Positions 31,886 through 41,682 of a stretch of 64,000 nt of DNA are shown in pieces (position 1 is the stretch's first letter; each line of letters starts with the position of its first letter). This stretch comes from an uncultured Gemmiger sp. (lineage in GTDB: Bacteria; Bacillota; Clostridia; Oscillospirales; Ruminococcaceae). The position numbers and the translations under genes were made by a program. Under the pieces are notes generated by a model. The model was not told the origin of the DNA, ran no database searches, and worked only from the letters and a program-made list of their open reading frames with translations. The DNA lies in the NCBI GenBank assembly GCA_944388215.1, contig CALXHT010000005.1, positions 1 to 64,000 of the forward strand. The letters are read 5' to 3'.

Positions 31886-33508
31886 TCAGGTGTCCGCCTG
31901 CTGGGGCGGACGGAAGGTGATGATGAAGGAACTGCCCACACCCTGGGTGGACTCCACCCGGATCTCGCCGCCGTAGGCATCCACCACGCTTTTCACCAGG
32001 AACAGTCCGGTGCCGTGGCCCTCCCCCTTGGAGGTGCTGCCCCGCTCAAAGATGTGCTCGCGGATCTCCTCCGGCATGCCGCAGGCGTTGTCGTCCACGC
32101 TCAGGATCAGGCCGCGGTCGCTCTCCCGCACCGAGACATCGATCTCGTGGAGGGTGTCGGAGGGGGCGTTGCCGAAGGCGTCAAAGGCGTTCTCGATCAG
32201 GTTGCCCAGAATGGTGATCATCCCCGAGGCGGGCAGGTAGTGGGTGTCGGCGCTGAGATGGCTCTCGGGGTCCAGCGTCAGCCGTACGCCCAGTTCCGCC
32301 GCCCGGCAGCTCTTGCCGATGAGCAGGGCGGCCACCGACGGTTCGGCGATGCTCTGGGAGATCCGCCCCACCGACAGCGCCTTGGTCTGGGTCAGCTGGA
32401 GCACGTAGTCCTCGGCCTGCTTGGCCTCGCCCAGCTGCAAAAGGCCCAGGATGACGTGGAGCTTGTTCATGAATTCGTGGGTGTAGGCGCGCATGGCCTC
32501 CACCATGTGCTGCACGCCGGTGAGCTCCCGGGCCAGGTGAGCCACTTCGGTGCGGTTGCGGAAGATGGCCACGGCGCCCACGATCTGGCCGTCCCGGCGC
32601 ACCGGCATCCGGTCGGAGAGGATCCGCACATGGTGCAGCGATTCCAGACCGATGTTGTACTCCGGCTGTTCGGTGTGGATGACCCGGGGGATGGTGGACT
32701 GGGGATAGACCTCGGACAGCGCCTTGCCGATGACGGCGCTCTTGTCGAAGGAGAGCATCTCGGCGGCGGCGCGGTTGATGTAGATGATGCGCTCCTCCCG
32801 GTCGATGGCCAGAAGACCTTCGTCCAGGGCGTCCAGCAGCTCCATCCGGCGCAGGAACAAATCCCGGAAGGCGTCCGGCTCATAGCCCAGCAGGTCGCTC
32901 TTGATGCGCTGGGCCAGCCGCAGGCTCAGAAAGGCGCCCACGCCCAGGGCCGCCGCCCCAATGAGCAGATACACCCCCAGTGTGCGCAGGCCGGTGGAGC
33001 GGATGGAACTGAGATACAGCCCCGCCATCACATAGCCCTTGACGGTGCCGTCCGTCCGGTAGACCGCGGCGTAGGCACAGTGGTCGGCCCCCTGGGGGGC
33101 GCGGGCGTCGTCCAGCAGGGCATTCTCCGAGGCGGACAGCTTGCCCATGAGGGTCTCATCCAGCGGTTCCAGCGCGTCAACGCCGTCGGTGCTGCCGGTG
33201 ACATCCTGCAGGTAGACGGGCTGCCCCTCGGCGTCGTAGACGGCGAACAGGTCGATGCCCGAGATGCCCTGCACCGTGCGGTTGACATACTCCGTAAGGC
33301 GTCCCGGGTCGTCGCCGTCGGTGATGGTCAGCGTGTGGGATACCGCCTGCACAGCGGTGATGAGGGTATCGTTGCGGGAGCGCCGCTCCTGCATGAGGTT
33401 GAGGGACAGGCCGGCGCCGGTGGCCAGCACCATGGCCACCAGGATGCCCAGCACCGATACGCGGCGGATCTGATGGTAGACGGTATGGCCGGTCGACTTC
33501 TTTTCCAT
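31886..33508 (-). CDS. CitA/DcuS-type sensor histidine kinase
   Basis: 540-residue membrane sensor. TM1 is at about residues 17-38, then an extracytoplasmic sCache/PAS-like domain (about 45-165), TM2, and a cytoplasmic PAS (around LDALDEGLLAIDREERIIYIN). The phosphoacceptor region is YTHEFMNKLHVILGL with SpoOB-type dimerisation, and the ATPase has NLIENAFDAFG and GHGTGLFLVKS. The ATG at 33508 has AAAGGAGG upstream. The layout is that of citrate or C4-dicarboxylate sensors, but residues that bind the ligand could not be verified, so the signal is unknown. Confidence 0.88.
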   Translation of the reverse strand: MEKKSTGHTVYHQIRRVSVLGILVAMVLATGAGLSLNLMQERRSRNDTLITAVQAVSHTLTITDGDDPGRLTEYVNRTVQGISGIDLFAVYDAEGQPVYLQDVTGSTDGVDALEPLDETLMGKLSASENALLDDARAPQGADHCAYAAVYRTDGTVKGYVMAGLYLSSIRSTGLRTLGVYLLIGAAALGVGAFLSLRLAQRIKSDLLGYEPDAFRDLFLRRMELLDALDEGLLAIDREERIIYINRAAAEMLSFDKSAVIGKALSEVYPQSTIPRVIHTEQPEYNIGLESLHHVRILSDRMPVRRDGQIVGAVAIFRNRTEVAHLARELTGVQHMVEAMRAYTHEFMNKLHVILGLLQLGEAKQAEDYVLQLTQTKALSVGRISQSIAEPSVAALLIGKSCRAAELGVRLTLDPESHLSADTHYLPASGMITILGNLIENAFDAFGNAPSDTLHEIDVSVRESDRGLILSVDDNACGMPEEIREHIFERGSTSKGEGHGTGLFLVKSVVDAYGGEIRVESTQGVGSSFIITFRPPQQADT

Positions 33509-33546
33509 ACGGCCCTCCTTTATAGAATAGGACAGATTCTGCGGTA

Positions 33547-33575
33547 ATGATACCACCTTCCCACAGAATCGTCAA
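33547..33575 (-). promoter_or_regulatory. SigA-type promoter for the sensor kinase/regulator operon
   Basis: Minus strand: TTGACG, 17-base spacer, TATCAT, about 40 bases before the kinase ATG. Confidence 0.8.
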
Positions 33576-33707: not shown

Positions 33708-34403
33708 TTGGAAGGTTTTAAAGAAGCCCTGGTTGATGCGCTTGCCAACGAAACCGCGTTTACGATCCCGGTCCTCGGCGGCATCCCCATCAGCTCGGCC
33801 GTGCTGGTGACCTGGATCATTATGGCGTTCTGGATCATCTTCACGCTGCTGGCCACCCGCAATCTGAAGGTCAGCAACCCCGGCAAGCTGCAGATCGTGC
33901 TGGAATCCGCCGTGGAGTTCCTCAACGGATTCGTCAAGGATACGATCGGCCCCCACTGGCGGCCCTTTGCCCCCTATCTGGGCAGCGTGGCGCTCTACAT
34001 CGGCCTGGCAAACATCATCAGCATTTTCGGTCTGACGCCCCCCACCAAGGATGTCAGCGTGACCGCCGCCCTGGCGTTCATGAGCCTGGTGCTGATCTAC
34101 GGTGCGCAGTTCCGCTATAACGGTCTGCGCGGCGGCCTGAAGCGTTTTGCCGACCCCATGCCCGTGCTGGTCCCCATCAACCTGATGGAAATCGCCATCC
34201 GTCCGCTGGCGCTCTGCATGCGACTGTTCGGCAACGTCCTGGGCGCATTCATCATCATGGAGATCATCAAGTACCTGGTACCCGCCGTGGTACCCGCCGT
34301 CTTCTGCATCTACTTTGATCTGTTCGACGGCCTCATCCAGACCATTGTCTTTGTCTTTTTGACCGCTCTGTTCGCAGGCGAGGGCATCAAGGAAGAAGAG
34401 TAA
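33708..34403 (+). CDS. atpB: ATP synthase F0 subunit a
   Basis: 231-residue membrane subunit forming the proton half-channels beside the c-ring. The essential Arg lies in IRPLALCMRLFGN. About five hydrophobic helices are seen, and the size matches short Gram-positive a subunits. The start is TTG at 33708, with AGAGGTG 7 bases upstream. It is the first gene of the atp operon. No atpI precedes it. Confidence 0.95.
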   Translation: MEGFKEALVDALANETAFTIPVLGGIPISSAVLVTWIIMAFWIIFTLLATRNLKVSNPGKLQIVLESAVEFLNGFVKDTIGPHWRPFAPYLGSVALYIGLANIISIFGLTPPTKDVSVTAALAFMSLVLIYGAQFRYNGLRGGLKRFADPMPVLVPINLMEIAIRPLALCMRLFGNVLGAFIIMEIIKYLVPAVVPAVFCIYFDLFDGLIQTIVFVFLTALFAGEGIKEEE

Positions 34404-34428
34404 GCCCCGCCCCCACCCGCGCGGCGTT

Positions 34429-34446
34429 TGCCGCGCTCCCATGAAA
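34429..34446 (+). other. Hairpin between atpB and atpE
   Basis: Perfect 7-bp GC stem with a GTTT loop and no T run, so not a terminator. It may protect mRNA or aid the high translation that subunit c needs. Confidence 0.5.
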
Positions 34447-34469
34447 AGAACTTTCAGGAGGAAACTACT

Positions 34470-34688
34470 ATGTCTATCGGAATCATCGCCGCAGGTCTCG
34501 CAGTTCTCACCGGTTTTGGTGCCGGTATCGGCATCGGCATCGCCACCGGCCACGCCAGCGACGCCATCGCCCGTCAGCCCGAAGCTTCCGGCAAGATCAA
34601 CAGCACCCTGCTGCTGGGCTGCGCCATGGCAGAAGGTACTGCCATCTTCGGTTTTATCACCGCGCTGATCATCATCTTCGTGGGTTAA
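34470..34688 (+). CDS. atpE: ATP synthase F0 subunit c (proton type)
   Basis: 72-residue hairpin of two transmembrane helices joined by the ARQPEA loop that contacts F1. The ion-binding Glu is in AMAEGTAIFGF. Compared with Na+ rings (Gln32, Glu65, Ser66), the positions here are Ile in GIGIGI, Glu, and Gly, so the Na+ ligands are missing and H+ coupling is expected. A perfect AGGAGG lies 10 bases upstream. Confidence 0.95.
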   Translation: MSIGIIAAGLAVLTGFGAGIGIGIATGHASDAIARQPEASGKINSTLLLGCAMAEGTAIFGFITALIIIFVG

Positions 34689-34704
34689 AAGGAGGTGTGC
34701 CCAA

Positions 34705-35193
34705 ATGCTGGATTTCCAGCCGTGGACGATCTTTTTTACCATCGTCAACCTGTTGATTTTGTATTTCTTTTTCCGCAAATTCCTGTTTGGGCGCATCAAT
34801 GCCGTGCTGGAGCAGCGTGAACAGCTGATCCGCAGCCAGGTGGAAGAGGCCGCGAAGAACAACGCCGAGGCCCAGAAGAGCAAACAGGAATATGAGACGA
34901 AACTGGCCGGTGCCCGGCAGGAAGCCGCCGAGCTGGTGGCGGACGCCAAGCGCCGTGCCGATGTGGCCTACGCCGATCGTCTGGCGCAGGCCGAAGCCGA
35001 CGCCAAGCAGACGGCGGCGGAAGCCGAGGCCCGCATTGCGGCCGAGCGCAGCGAGATGCTGCGTACGGCCCGCGGTGAGGTGGCCCATCTGGCCGTGATG
35101 GCCGCCACCGAGGTGGCCGGCAAGCGGCTGGATACCGACTCCGACCGTGCGCTGGCGGAGGAATTCTTGGCAAAGGTGGGTGAGCAGGCATGA
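34705..35193 (+). CDS. atpF: ATP synthase F0 subunit b
   Basis: 162-residue peripheral-stalk subunit: one N-terminal transmembrane helix ([13 protein letters not shown]) followed by a long charged Ala/Glu/Arg-rich helix that dimerises as a right-handed coiled coil. AAAGGAGG precedes the ATG. The stop overlaps the next gene's start by four bases. Confidence 0.94.
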
Positions 35194-37232
35194 GCGAAGC
35201 GACCGAGCGTTACGCTGCGGCCCTGTTCGGGGCTGCCCAGGGCGACGCGGGGGCCGTGCGCGCTGCCGCCGATGCCCTGATGGCGGATACCCAGCGCTGG
35301 AATGTGCTGCTGAGCGACGCCACCACCGACGCCGAGAAGAAAGAGCTGCTGGCCGGTGCGCCGCAGCTGGACGGTCAGGACGCCCTGAAAGCCTTCCTGC
35401 AGCTGCTGCTGGCGGAAGGCCATCTGAACGCCCTGCCGGAGATCCTGCCGGAATTTTCCCGCCTGGCGCTGAACGCCCAGGGCGGTATGGAATGTGTGAT
35501 GACCTGCGCCCGCCAGCCGGACCAGGCCACCCAGGAGGCCGTGCGCAAGGCGGCCTGCAAGCTGCGCGGTGCCGACAACGTGGTGCTGCAGATCAAGATC
35601 GATCCCAGCCTGCTGGGCGGTTTTGTGCTGGACATCGACGGCGTGACCTATGACCGCAGTGTCAAGGGCCGTCTGGACCGTCTGGCCCGCGGTATCGAGA
35701 GCACCAACAGCAGCGACGACACGCTGGATCAGCTGGCTGCCCAGATGAAGGAAGCCCTCTCCGGTTCTGCCGGCGATACCATGGCCACCGAGACCGGCCG
35801 CGTGCTGGAGATCGGCGACGGCATCGCCAACGTCAGCGGCCTGCGCCACGCCGTCTACGGCGAGCGCGTGGAGTTCGAGAACGGCACCGCCGGTCTGATC
35901 CTGGACCTGCGCCGCAAGCGCACCGGCGTGGTGCTGCTGGGCAGCGCCGAGGGCCTGACCGAGGGCAGCCTGGTGCGCCGCACCGGCCGTCCCGCCGACG
36001 TGCCGGTGGGCGAAGCCCTCATCGGCCGTACCGTCAACGCCCTGGGCCAGCCCATCGACGGCCTGGGCCCTGTCAACTGCACCGAGACCCGCCCCATCGA
36101 GCATGAGGCGTCCGGCGTAGTCAGCCGTGAACCGGTCACCCAGCCCATGCAGACCGGCATCCTGGCCATCGACGCCATGGTGCCCATCGGCCGCGGCCAG
36201 CGTGAACTGATCATCGGCGACCGCCAGACCGGCAAGACCTCCATCGCCACCGATGCCATTCTGAACCAGAAGGGTCAGAACATGATCTGCATCTACGTGG
36301 CCATCGGCCAGAAGGCTTCCACCGTCGCCCGCCTGCGGGAGACCCTGAAGAAGCACGGCGCCATGGAGTACAGCATCATCGTGTCGGCCCCCGCCGCCGA
36401 GGGTGCCTCCATGCAGTACATCGCCCCCTACGCGGGCGCTGCCATGGGCGAGTACTTCATGTCCAAGGGCAAGGACGTGCTCATCGTCTACGATGACCTT
36501 TCCAAGCACGCGGTGGCCTACCGTACGCTGTCCTTGCTGCTGCGCCGTTCCCCCGGCCGTGAAGCCTATCCCGGCGACGTTTTCTATCTGCATTCCCGTC
36601 TGCTGGAGCGCGCCTGCCGCCTGACCAAGGAGTACGGCGGCGGTTCCATGACGGCCCTGCCCATCGTCGAGACCCAGGCCGGCGACGTTTCGGCCTACAT
36701 TCCCACCAACGTCATTTCCATCACCGACGGCCAGATCTACCTGGAAAGCGGCCTGTTCTTCTCGGGCCAGCGCCCGGCCGTCAACGTGGGTCTGTCGGTG
36801 TCCCGTGTGGGCGGCGCCGCCCAGACCCGGGCCATCAAGAAGACCGCCGGTACCCTGCGTATCGACCTGGCCCGGTACCGTGAACTGGAAGTCTTCACCC
36901 AGTTCAGCTCCGACCTGGACGCCGAGACCCGCCAGGCCCTGGATCACGGCAAGCGGATGATGGCGCTGCTGCGCCAGCCCCTCTGCACGCCCATGACGGT
37001 GGCCCGTCAGGCGGTCATCCTGTACATCGCCACCAACGGCCTGCTGAACGACGTGCCGGTGGAGAAGTCCGCCGCCTTCGCCAAGGATTTTGCCGACCTG
37101 CTGGAGCGCGAGCAGGCTGACCTGATGAAGGAGATCAACGAGACCGGTGCTTTGTCCGGTACCGCCACCGAGCAGATCCGCACCACGCTGCAGAGCTACA
37201 AAGAGCAGGTGAGCGCCACATGGAAAGCATAA
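35190..37232 (+). CDS. atpHA: ATP synthase F1 delta-alpha fusion protein
   Basis: One uninterrupted 680-codon frame encodes both subunits. Residues 1 to about 168 are a full-length delta (OSCP) subunit, ending in the family's [14 protein letters not shown] and [10 protein letters not shown]. Then without stop, start or ribosome-binding site comes alpha, including its N-terminal helix ([13 protein letters not shown]), [11 protein letters not shown] at residue 203, the P-loop GDRQTGKT at 343-350 and the VGGAAQT region with the Arg-finger-containing segment SVSRVGG. The alpha part is about 510 residues, the normal length. Internal ATGs in the junction lack Shine-Dalgarno sites. Delta normally occurs once and alpha three times per F1, so the fusion poses a stoichiometry problem. 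Gamma starts 13 bases before its end. Confidence 0.9.
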
Positions 37233-38143
37233 AGGAGATCCGCACCCACATCGACAGCGTGCAGCAGACCCTCAAGATCACCAACGCCATGTATCTGATC
37301 TCCTCCTCCAAGCTGCGCAAGGCCCGCCGTCAGCTGACCGACGTGCAGCCCTACTTTGAGAAGATCACCCGTACCATTTCCGACATCCTGCACCGCACGG
37401 CCGGCGTGGACCATGTCTACTTCGACACCCGTTCGGACCATCCCCACAAGGTGGGCTACATCGTCATCACCGGCGACAAAGGCCTGGCGGGTGCCTACAA
37501 CCACAACGTGCTGCGCCTGGTGGAAGAGGAAATGGCCAAGGTGGAGAACCCCACGCTGTTTCTGATCGGCCAGTCCGGCCGCAACTACTTCCAGCACAAG
37601 GGTGTCAACATCGACGGCGAGTTCATGTACACCGCCCAGGACCCCACGGTCTACCGTGCCCGGGAGATCGGCGATACCTTCATCGAGCTGTTCCGCAAGG
37701 GACATCTGGATGAGGTGTACGTGGTCTACACCGAGATGGTCACCCCCATGCAGATGGAGCCCAAGATCGTCAAGCTGCTGCCCCTGGACCGCGACGCCTT
37801 CCCCTGGAAGCCCCGCCACAGCGCCGACGGCAGTGAGCGGCACGTGGTGACCTATGTGCCGTCCCCCGAGCATGTGCTCAACCACATCGTGCCCTCCTAC
37901 CTGAAAGGGTTGCTGTTCGGTACGCTGGTGGAGTCCTTCTGCTCCGAGCAGAACGCCCGCATGAACGCCATGGATACCGCCACCGACAACGCCCGGTCCC
38001 TGCTGAAGGAACTGTCGCTGCACTACAACCGTGCCCGCCAGTCCGCCATCACCCAGGAGATCACCGAGATCGTGGGCGGCGCGCAGCCGGGCGGCGATGA
38101 CTGGGAGGACGACGACTGGGCCGACGAGGAAGCCGACCTGTAA
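37220..38143 (+). CDS. atpG: ATP synthase F1 gamma subunit
   Basis: 307-residue central rotor shaft. The N-terminal helix motif [18 protein letters not shown] and the C-terminal helix with [14 protein letters not shown] and [14 protein letters not shown] are typical. The ATG overlaps the end of the delta-alpha gene by 13 bases, with AGGTG 8 bases upstream. The C-terminus carries an extra acidic tail ([13 protein letters not shown]), not usual for gamma. Confidence 0.93.
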
Positions 38144-39585
<1,442 letters not shown>

Positions 39586-39586
<1 letters not shown>

Positions 39587-39993
39587 TGGGAAAGACCTTT
39601 CAGCTGGAAATCATCACGCCGGAGCGCCAGTTCTACACCGGCCCGGTGGAAAGCCTGGTGCTGCCCGCCCTGGACGGCGAATACGGTGTGCTGCCCGGCC
39701 ATGAGCCGGTGGTCACCGCGGTGGAGCCCGGAGAGGCCCGCTTCAAGGCGGACGGCGTGTGGCACAACGTCATCGTGACCCAGGGCTTTGCCGAGATCAC
39801 CTCGGAGTATGCCGTGGTGCTGGTCTCCACGGCGGAAAAGCCGGAGGAGATCGATGCGGCCCGTGCCGAACGCGCCAAGGAACGCGCCGAGGAGCGTCTG
39901 CGTCAGCACGGCAGCCAGCAGGAATATTTCCGCAGCAAGGCGGCCCTGGCCCGCGCCACGGCCCGTCTGCGCGCCACCTCCCACAGAGGCTGA
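39586..39993 (+). CDS. atpC: ATP synthase F1 epsilon subunit
   Basis: 135-residue subunit with the N-terminal beta-sandwich (EIITPERQFYTG, GEYGVLPGHEP) and C-terminal helical hairpin rich in Arg, Glu and Ala. It links gamma to the c-ring and can act as an inhibitor. It is the last gene of the operon, followed by a strong terminator. Confidence 0.95.
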
Positions 39994-40048: not shown

Positions 40049-41092
40049 TCAGGCGGTGCGGCGCTGCGGGGCGGGACGGGCATTCCGCTGGGGCGCGGGC
40101 AGCGTGGCGTGGAACTGCTGCAATGCCTGGCCGATGCGGGGCAGACTGCGGGCTTCAGCCACCCGGCGCCCGGCGCCGGTCAGGTCGGGCAGCTGTTTTG
40201 TGAGGATGCCCCGCAGCTTTTCCTCCAGCCGGGCCAGGTCGCGGCCCTTCCATACGTTGACGCCGTCGGTGAGCCAGTCCTGGTAGACCGGGATGTCCCG
40301 CAGCAGGGTGGGGGTGCCGCAGGCCAGCGCCTCCAGCACCACAATGCCCTCGGTCTCCTCGTGGCTGCAGAACAGGAAGGCGTCGGCGCCGCAGTAGGCG
40401 TCCCGCAGCGCTTCCTGGGAGAGGAATCCCGGGAAGGAGACATTGTCCGGGGCGGCGGCCATGGCCTTGCGGATCTTCCGGGGCACCAGGGCCGGGTCGG
40501 TGTAGCCGAACCAGAAGAACCGCACATCCGGCATGCGGCGGGCAAGCTGGATAAAGTCCAGAATGCCCTTGCGCTCCATGAAATGCCCCACACTGATGAC
40601 CGCCCTGTCGGTATCCTTCAGGCCGTAGGCCTGCCGGAAGGCCAGACGCCGGGCAGGGTCGGGGGCGAAGAAGTCGGTGTCCACCCCGTTGGAGAGGGGC
40701 TGCACCGGCGGACGCAGCCCGTAGCCTCGCAGGATGGCGGCGGCGTAGGGGGTGGGGGTGAGGATCAGATCGGCCTGGTTGTAGCACAGACAGAGCCACC
40801 GTTTGAAGAGGGGGGCCAGCAGGTCGGACCCCACGAAGGAATGGCGGAAATCCGCCTCGGTGGAATGGCCGTACCAGATCACCGGGATGCCCTCCCGCCG
40901 GGCGCGGCGGGCTGCCCGGAAGGAGCAGGGCAGCACGGTGTTGATGTGGATCACGTCGGCCCGGGGCTGCCAGTCCTCCACCACCGACACCCCGGTGCGT
41001 TCCAGCGCCGCCCGCTGGTGGCGGGCCGCCTGGCCCACGCCGCTTTTGCCCACCAGGGCCAGCGAACCCGTATAGATATGAACACGAAACAT
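40049..41092 (-). CDS. GT4 glycosyltransferase, probable second glycolipid transferase
   Basis: 347-residue GT-B retaining enzyme. The N-terminal GKSGVGQAARHQRAAL resembles transferases that add a second hexose to monoglycosyl-diacylglycerol (LafB-like). The C-lobe has SNGVDTDFF, VGHFMERKG and the E-x7-E signature in EETEGIVVLEALACG. The ATG at 41092 has GGAGGTG 6 bases upstream; longer in-frame readings lack support. It follows the TVP38-like gene by 5 bases in a three-gene operon whose first gene resembles a diacylglycerol glucosyltransferase. A role in the glycolipid anchor of lipoteichoic acid is inferred. Confidence 0.8.
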   Translation of the reverse strand: MFRVHIYTGSLALVGKSGVGQAARHQRAALERTGVSVVEDWQPRADVIHINTVLPCSFRAARRARREGIPVIWYGHSTEADFRHSFVGSDLLAPLFKRWLCLCYNQADLILTPTPYAAAILRGYGLRPPVQPLSNGVDTDFFAPDPARRLAFRQAYGLKDTDRAVISVGHFMERKGILDFIQLARRMPDVRFFWFGYTDPALVPRKIRKAMAAAPDNVSFPGFLSQEALRDAYCGADAFLFCSHEETEGIVVLEALACGTPTLLRDIPVYQDWLTDGVNVWKGRDLARLEEKLRGILTKQLPDLTGAGRRVAEARSLPRIGQALQQFHATLPAPQRNARPAPQRRTA

Positions 41093-41097
41093 CTCTG

Positions 41098-41682
41098 TCA
41101 CCTCCAAAGACCCAGCACGTTCTGGGCGATCACGGTCAGCCCCAGGCTGTACATTGCGATGGCTGCCGGTTTGCACAGAAAGATGATGGCGGTGTAGAGC
41201 CGCCAGTCCATGCGGGTGGTCCCGGCGAGGAAGCAGAGGTAATCGTCGGGAGCCACCGGCAGAAAGATCAGCAGGGCGAACCACCGGGCAAACCGGTTGC
41301 CGGTGCCCATCCAGCGGTCGTATTTTTCGATGAGTTTGGGCGGAAAGAGGGATTCCAGCAGCGGCCGTCCGCAGGCCCGGGCGATGGCAAAGGCGGCCAG
41401 CGACCCCACGCAGATGCCGAGGTAGTTGTACCAGAATCCCTGCCAGCCGCCGAACAGGACGACCCCCGCCAGGCACCCCAACCCGCCGGGCAGGATGGGA
41501 ATGACCACCTGCACGGCCTGGAACGCCATGAAGACCACCGGCCCGGCCCAGCCGAACTGGCCGATGTAGGCGGTCAGCGCCTCCCGGGAGTCAAACAGGC
41601 CGGCCCGCCAGAAGGAATAGGCCAGCACACAGCAGAGCACCAGCCCCAGCACCGAGGCTGCGCGGTTGATGGTTTTTACCAT
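41098..41682 (-). CDS. TVP38/TMEM64 (VTT-domain) membrane protein
   Basis: 194-residue protein with about five hydrophobic segments. The VTT/SNARE-associated signature is seen in VVIPILPGGLGCLAGVVLFGG-type residues (quoted here as VVIPILPGG) and GICVGSLAAFAIARACGRP. This superfamily (DedA, TVP38, TMEM64) includes lipid scramblases and undecaprenyl- or phospholipid-flipping proteins. The ATG at 41682 lies 7 bases inside the upstream glycosyltransferase gene, and the next transferase begins 5 bases after its stop. It could flip the glycolipid made by the two enzymes, an inference from position. Confidence 0.82.
   Translation of the reverse strand: MVKTINRAASVLGLVLCCVLAYSFWRAGLFDSREALTAYIGQFGWAGPVVFMAFQAVQVVIPILPGGLGCLAGVVLFGGWQGFWYNYLGICVGSLAAFAIARACGRPLLESLFPPKLIEKYDRWMGTGNRFARWFALLIFLPVAPDDYLCFLAGTTRMDWRLYTAIIFLCKPAAIAMYSLGLTVIAQNVLGLWR

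Follow-up and report, generated by a model that had tools for sequence, protein, structure and literature searches.

An in-frame fusion of the ATP synthase delta and alpha subunits in Gemmiger, its conservation in the genus and its relatives across the order, class and phylum

Background

F-type ATP synthases are, as a rule, treated as enzymes with one outer stalk and one delta subunit per F1, and in the known enzymes it is the C-terminal domain of delta (CTD) that binds the b subunit. Where delta is joined to b, no conflict with the ratio of three alpha to one delta arises, the partner being b. V/A-type ATPases possess several peripheral stalks, with EG placed on the non-catalytic subunit B.

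The one-stalk rule was broken in 2025 by an engineered enzyme, described in PMC12229609 (Nat Commun 2025), where the position of the delta N-terminal domain on the threefold axis is argued to limit the enzyme to one stalk. In the FoF1 of Bacillus PS3 this domain was removed and the C-terminal domain was fused to alpha, which according to that report yielded an enzyme with as many as three stalks and three a-subunits and an H+/ATP ratio of 5.8 compared to 3.0, in which the fused C-domain binds b2 canonically and of which three-stalk particles were few in cryo-EM (PMC12229609). The structure deposited as PDB 9jc1 (chain I, a delta-alpha chain of 580 residues) is probably that of this engineered PS3 enzyme. 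The same source mentions a natural fusion without the delta N-domain in Acidaminococcus fermentans, with 'similar features' in UniProt entries G4Q3K6 and A0A1I2C5T3 (PMC12229609). In Mycobacterium and Gordonia delta is joined to b instead (PMC5709465; PDB 7jg5_d), and the N-ATPases are described as lacking delta, with an operon that opens with beta-epsilon (PMC5709465, PMC5706428).

Here we describe a delta-alpha fusion encoded in the window, by which we mean the whole 64,000-nucleotide stretch that was analysed, from contig CALXHT010000005.1 of an uncultured Gemmiger sp. (GCA_944388215.1). Like the engineered PS3 enzyme (deltaDeltaN-alpha), it joins the delta C-domain in frame to the alpha N-terminus through a short linker, the head to which b2 binds in the engineered protein; it differs in being natural and in having kept the N-domain, the absence of which marks the engineered type. 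The fusion of A. fermentans is natural and encoded by one gene, as in the window, but the N-domain is missing there. The first-pass annotation of this DNA knew of no described delta-alpha fusion, a claim overtaken by both the engineered and the natural Acidaminococcus case in PMC12229609; relatives of the window fusion that contain the C-domain only look like the Acidaminococcus kind, beside which they are set by its published description, and are a kind already in print. The b-delta type likewise joins delta to a neighbouring subunit, the partner being b rather than alpha, while a triple fusion presented below joins a b-like segment, the delta C-domain and alpha. With the V/A-type stalks, a fused head on every alpha would share a functional parallel and not kinship, since the window operon encodes F-type subunits only. 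A search of open PubMed Central papers found no full-length delta-alpha fusion, no tandem or triple fusion and no distribution of the breadth reported here.

Results and discussion

Delta and alpha occupy one frame of a complete F1Fo operon

Direct reading of the sequence gave a single frame of 680 amino acids at 35190-37232 on the forward strand, running from ATG to TAA with no internal stop. Pfam OSCP (PF00213) covers residues 6-167 with 96.8 bits against a cut-off of 22.3 (profile positions 3-170 of 172), so that both domains of a two-domain delta are present, and phmmer pairs residues 5-168 with positions 7-175 of Bacillus PS3 delta (6n2y_I, 178 residues); a separate delta-CTD profile matches the window frame at positions 99-171, which correspond to residues 97-169. 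After a spacer of about 11 residues follows an F1 alpha, recognized by TIGR00962 (atpA) over residues 180-674 well above the cut-off (Table 1) and by the Pfam domains ATP-synt_ab_N (201-266), ATP-synt_ab (323-538) and ATP-synt_ab_C (545-669). Residue 180 pairs with residue 6 of PS3 alpha, where the phmmer alignment begins, and the N-terminal region of alpha is therefore present in the fusion. These matches bear out what the first-pass annotation had read from the letters, namely a full delta and a full alpha with its N-terminal region in one frame and a junction free of stops: the delta-alpha fusion in the window is genuine. Two AlphaFold2 models reached a mean pLDDT of 37.2 (6 rows) and 44.8 (7 rows), too low for use.

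The fusion is part of a complete operon with the order a-c-b-(delta-alpha)-gamma-beta-epsilon, at 33708-39993 on the forward strand (Table 1). The b stop and the fusion start overlap (ATGA), and gamma starts within the 3' end of alpha. Presence of delta, this gene order and a TIGR03324 score of 603.2 bits, below the cut-off of 750.5, set the operon apart from the N-ATPases, and b, a separate gene with its end at 35193, sets it apart from the mycobacterial b-delta type. The operon is flanked, both on the reverse strand, by a gene for a PAS and SpoOB-type sensor kinase (31886-33556) and one for a group 1 glycosyltransferase (40049-41476).

Table 1. Features of the fused operon (window positions)
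Feature	Position	Strand	Evidence and remarks
F0 subunit a, TTG start	33708..34403	+	PF00119 142.8 bits; NF004486 297.1 bits, cut-off 272
F0 subunit c, ATG at 34470	34470..34688	+	PF00137 63.1 bits
F0 subunit b	34705..35193	+	PF00430 91.9 bits
Delta/OSCP N-terminal domain, fusion residues 1-100	35190..35489	+	PF00213, 6n2y_I alignment; boundary approximate, mapped via PS3 delta
Delta/OSCP C-terminal domain, fusion residues 101-168	35490..35693	+	PF00213; delta-CTD profile
Linker, fusion residues 169-179	35694..35726	+	without stop, without Shine-Dalgarno sequence
F1 alpha, fusion residues 180-680 and stop	35727..37232	+	TIGR00962 743.8 bits, cut-off 484.45; PS3 alpha alignment; P-loop GDRQTGKT
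F1 gamma	37220..38143	+	PF00231 319.9 bits
F1 beta	38189..39586	+	TIGR01039 794.6 bits, cut-off 462.85
F1 epsilon	39586..39993	+	TIGR01216 107.6 bits, cut-off 67.25

The fusion is conserved within the genus

A full-length, stop-free fusion was present in 15 of 35 genomes of the genus, each with one terminal stop only. Two of these come from single-contig genomes, G026 (the same species as the window) and G034, and none of the 15 orthologs, from independent assemblies, showed the stop codon or frameshift between the domains by which the first-pass annotation would have been overturned. In G009, fusion residues 1-218 are followed by the contig end, and the fusion also occurs in three genomes assigned other genus codes (G288, G221, G143). 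Scanning named genomes with a 250-residue query gave 8 loci: the full query span was matched in 4 Gemmiger MAGs and 1 Clostridia MAG, G. formicilis An723 matched query residues 1-218, and two Oscillospiraceae MAGs carried the CTD-only kind. In each of 9 chosen pairs dN/dS (NG86) was below 1 for the N-domain, the C-domain, the linker and alpha alike, and mean pairwise identity was lowest in residues 169-200 (0.43), compared to 0.71 in the N-domain, 0.82 in the C-domain and 0.88 in alpha.

Fusions recur in several architectures across the order, class and phylum

The fusion is no isolated oddity: many families across the order, class and phylum have it, in several architectures. Residues 1-250 of the window protein, used as a query, retrieved close and distant fusions among 396 family genomes. 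With a junction profile built from 41 rows, and counting by hand as a match any hit that starts at or before position 10, ends at or after position 160 and has no stop, fusions were found in at least 50 of 295 genomes of the order, at least 29 of 291 of the class and 17 of 249 of the phylum, in draws that overlap and with matches in G556, G771 and G1160 whose frames are too short for a whole fusion. The match in G771 (L175) is a CTD-only frame of 509 amino acids with a stop inside alpha, away from the contig end. Single-contig genomes with a fusion outside the genus include G395, G716, G763, G960 and G992.

The 94 fused rows of our tree set were picked by hand, so that the following counts are not frequencies: 26 are full delta-alpha fusions (stop-to-stop frames of 671-753), 58 are CTD-only delta-alpha fusions (573-671), 9 are triple fusions (737-784) and 1 is a tandem fusion, L159 (G515), in which two delta C-domains precede alpha in one frame and Pfam finds two OSCP stretches. 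The triple fusions (L099, L100 and L146-L152, from G153, G276, G441, G479, G533, G684, G665, G442 and G509) consist of a hydrophobic N-terminal segment, a charged stretch, the delta C-domain and alpha. Inspection by eye located a separate b-like gene directly upstream in all seven triple loci checked (L146-L152). As the N-terminal segment of L099 gave no match to the Pfam b family at E 0.001, the label 'b-like' for the fused segment follows from its position and composition.

The idea that only fused deltas lose their N-domain was rejected, since four order genomes (G438, G477, G449 and G478; L200-L203) possess stand-alone CTD-only delta genes of 74-78 amino acids beside a separate alpha; the short match in G427 is a longer delta, a frame of 161 amino acids with an N-domain that, by eye, has diverged. 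Two further loci drew attention. In L176 (G794) a stretch of about 20 residues, NEMSDNEFRSRVASATNGVAM, occurs in about three successive copies ahead of the delta C-domain, and the full-length-fusion operon of L081 contains two near-identical tandem c-subunit frames (1026-1517, reverse-complement coordinates).

In 18 of 43 chosen fused genomes the fused protein is the sole OSCP match; 8 of these fusions are full-length (G176, G053, G238, G335, G291, G408, G168, G245) and 10 are CTD-only or triple. Of 107 genomes in an order-wide draw, 48 have an OSCP. They yield 51 matches, of which 26 are canonical, 5 are short and unfused, and one is the full-length fusion of the window; the other 19 fall in 18 further fused frames. 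In this draw, 17 genomes among the 19 with a fusion have no other OSCP, as counted by hand and with G460, G507 and G450 judged from their matches alone. Where the sole OSCP is fused, the fused delta must supply any delta function, unless the genome has another delta that escaped the search or sits in a stretch missing from the assembly. One such genome, G108, has the alpha P-loop GERQTGKT in place of GDRQTGKT in its fusion (L091), which is its only OSCP match.

Fusion has been gained or lost repeatedly

On trees of 134 alphas, from which the delta columns were left out, the pattern of fused and split genes needs 7 changes; supported branches force 7 changes of the split label with FastTree and 5 with IQ-TREE quick, each of which may be a gain or a loss of the fusion, and the deeper joins of the trees are unsure because of long branches. 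The 13 rows of the Gemmiger-type fusion group as a single clade (support 100) nested among split relatives (20 rows, support 100), the nearest split group joining at 85. In all seven split relatives examined, alpha is read in a different frame from delta and begins either directly after the delta stop or overlapping it. The triple fusions also form one clade (support 100).

Within one genus (g36), four CTD-only rows group together (support 100), with two full-length rows as their sister group (98), and another full-length row and the split row L056 stand beside those fusions (98). By eye, the CTD-only rows seem to keep the last helix of the N-domain. The simplest reading of this arrangement would be that the delta N-domain was lost after the fusion had formed; separate fusions are a possible alternative, as the split row L056 sits among the fusions.

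The fused enzyme stands beside a second, split F-ATPase

The same genome encodes, on contig C42, a second and ordinary split F-ATPase operon, and in the second-operon loci examined stops separate delta and alpha. The two enzymes differ in their c subunits. That of the window has I at the Q32 site, G at 66 and F at 70, and thereby presumably lacks the Na+ ligands, and the c subunits of the window and five other Gemmiger fusions share I at the Q32 site and G at 66. In the c subunit of the split C42 operon the Q32 site is E and positions 66/67/70 read S-T...Y, a motif that we take to be of the Na+ type, as in Ilyobacter and Fusobacterium; E occupied the Q32 site in 21 of 21 split operons examined from genomes with both kinds of operon (20 species). 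Gemmiger thus likely has an H+-type fused enzyme alongside an Na+-type split enzyme, to judge from these residues.

In 33 fused operons whose c subunit was examined, none of them triple, the Q32 site is I or M in 30 and Q or D in 3. The exceptions, L160 (G992), L162 (G1092) and L165 (G972), are CTD-only fused operons from outside the class. Together with the I that all 10 split operons examined on the window's side of the tree share, they rule out the notion that fusion goes with an H+-type c subunit; the type of c tracks the lineage of the operon and not the fusion.

The fusion occurs in 16 genomes of the genus, 13 of which have a split delta as well; three (G001, G003, G004) have the fused one only. 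V-type subunit D was found in none of these 16, compared to 11 of the 19 other genomes of the genus. This non-overlap has a hypergeometric probability of 1.8e-4 when kinship is ignored, but it amounts to 3-4 independent contrasts on the tree, for which a sign test is not significant, and gives no more than a hint that the fused F-type enzyme may have been replacing the V-type one in the genus.

How many stalks the fused enzyme may carry

As the first-pass annotation pointed out, a chain that joins delta to alpha conflicts with the ratio of three alpha to one delta in F1, and we accept this as a genuine stoichiometry problem. Our preferred reading, to which we give a probability of roughly 60%, is that one of the cell's two F1Fo-ATPases has a delta-alpha fusion maintained by selection, which most likely works as one chain with three delta copies per F1 and mostly one occupied stalk. 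The fusion would be translated and assembled as a single chain, each F1 thereby receiving three delta copies, one per alpha. The covalent tether would replace the non-covalent docking otherwise provided by the delta N-domain, and the delta C-domain would become a built-in socket for the b-stalk on every alpha. In the window type the N-domain would still hold one stalk at the axis, with the other two delta copies displaced or idle; mostly one occupied stalk is expected because only one of the three N-domains fits the threefold axis. Relatives without the N-domain would be likely to carry two or three stalks, as in the engineered PS3 enzyme. We infer the absence of cleavage, the 3:3 stoichiometry and the number of stalks from the genes, and a retained and constrained N-domain would fit a single axial site in a 3:1 enzyme equally well.

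A wider proposal, towards which we lean less than towards its opposite, is that ATP synthases with several stalks occur naturally and widely among Clostridia and their relatives and arose more than once, by fusion, then erosion of the N-domain and, in one clade, fusion of a stalk segment. Gemmiger would then stand at the first step, its H+-type fused enzyme beside an Na+-type single-stalk one perhaps serving to make ATP at low proton-motive force. As relatives show the joining in several forms, natural ATP synthases may have more than one outer stalk, and these genes suggest that evolution may have broken the one-stalk rule more than once. They would offer its intermediates, with the N-domain kept, the N-domain trimmed, the C-domain only, tandem C-domains and a stalk segment fused on, and would make the number of stalks, and hence the H+/ATP ratio, a testable trait in anaerobic bacteria, some of which are culturable.

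That the window enzyme itself is multi-stalk, with a separate b2 and perhaps a separate a subunit bound by each delta-alpha and a higher H+/ATP ratio as the result, seems to us rather unlikely. The engineered PS3 CTD-delta-alpha enzyme, with its up to three stalks and raised H+/ATP ratio, speaks for it (PMC12229609), as do the natural fusion of a b-like segment, the delta C-domain and alpha, which would place a stalk segment on every alpha, and the missing V-type subunit D in the fusion genomes of the genus. The same report, however, holds the delta N-domain responsible for the single-stalk limit (PMC12229609), and this is the domain that the window type keeps, while the V-type exclusion comes down to the few non-significant contrasts given above.

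Separate production of alpha

An alpha made apart from the fused chain would restore the usual ratio. Among candidate starts in the window (ATGs at residues 186 and 198, GTGs at 205 and 227), Shine-Dalgarno (SD) duplex energies range from -2.4 to -3.1 kcal/mol, compared to -5.9 to -13.1 kcal/mol at six starts of the operon, that of c having been left out of this comparison, which upholds the earlier claim that the junction contains no start with such a signal. All 15 orthologs have an ATG at residue 184-186; its SD energy varies from -1.5 to -5.4 and at its strongest comes close to that of the weakest operon start (-5.9). In the tree set we counted ATG, GTG or TTG codons with an SD energy of -6 or lower in the start zone of split alphas, 160-186 residues ahead of the P-loop. 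Such codons were present in 27 of 40 split alphas, in none of 26 full-length fusions, in none of 9 triple fusions, in 9 of 58 CTD-only fusions and in the single tandem fusion (1/1). An SD-led alpha start is thus absent from the junction of the window type. For the CTD-only linkers, the 9 of 58 with such an NTG codon disprove the view that they hold no internal start. With the zone widened to 130-186 residues before the P-loop, such codons appear in 2 of the 26 full-length fusions, in 26 of the 58 CTD-only ones and in none of the 9 triple ones, but a start in this wider zone would give an alpha without its N-terminal helix.

SD-independent starts or proteolysis may still act on the fused chain, and if internal initiation or cleavage of the linker freed most of the alpha, one delta per F1 and a normal 3:1 enzyme with a single stalk would result. 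An N-domain that is retained and constrained in the genus, a junction (residues 169-200) that is the least conserved part of the protein, at 0.43 identity against 0.88 for alpha, and the ATG kept at residues 184-186 in every ortholog are what one would expect from such processing. We nevertheless consider it improbable, less so only than an artefact, because those ATGs lack a strong SD, because a start at 186 would remove much of the alpha N-helix, and because fusions occur in many families and are sometimes the sole OSCP of a genome, which would be odd if cleavage had to undo them. The uncleaved chain with three delta copies stays our preferred reading. An assembly or sequencing error or a decaying spare copy, which the fragmented window genome (46 contigs, 88.79% complete) and the second F-ATPase operon beside it might bring to mind, is refuted by the orthologs, as a fusion at this point recurs in independent assemblies, including two single-contig genomes, dN/dS is below 1 and the operon is complete.
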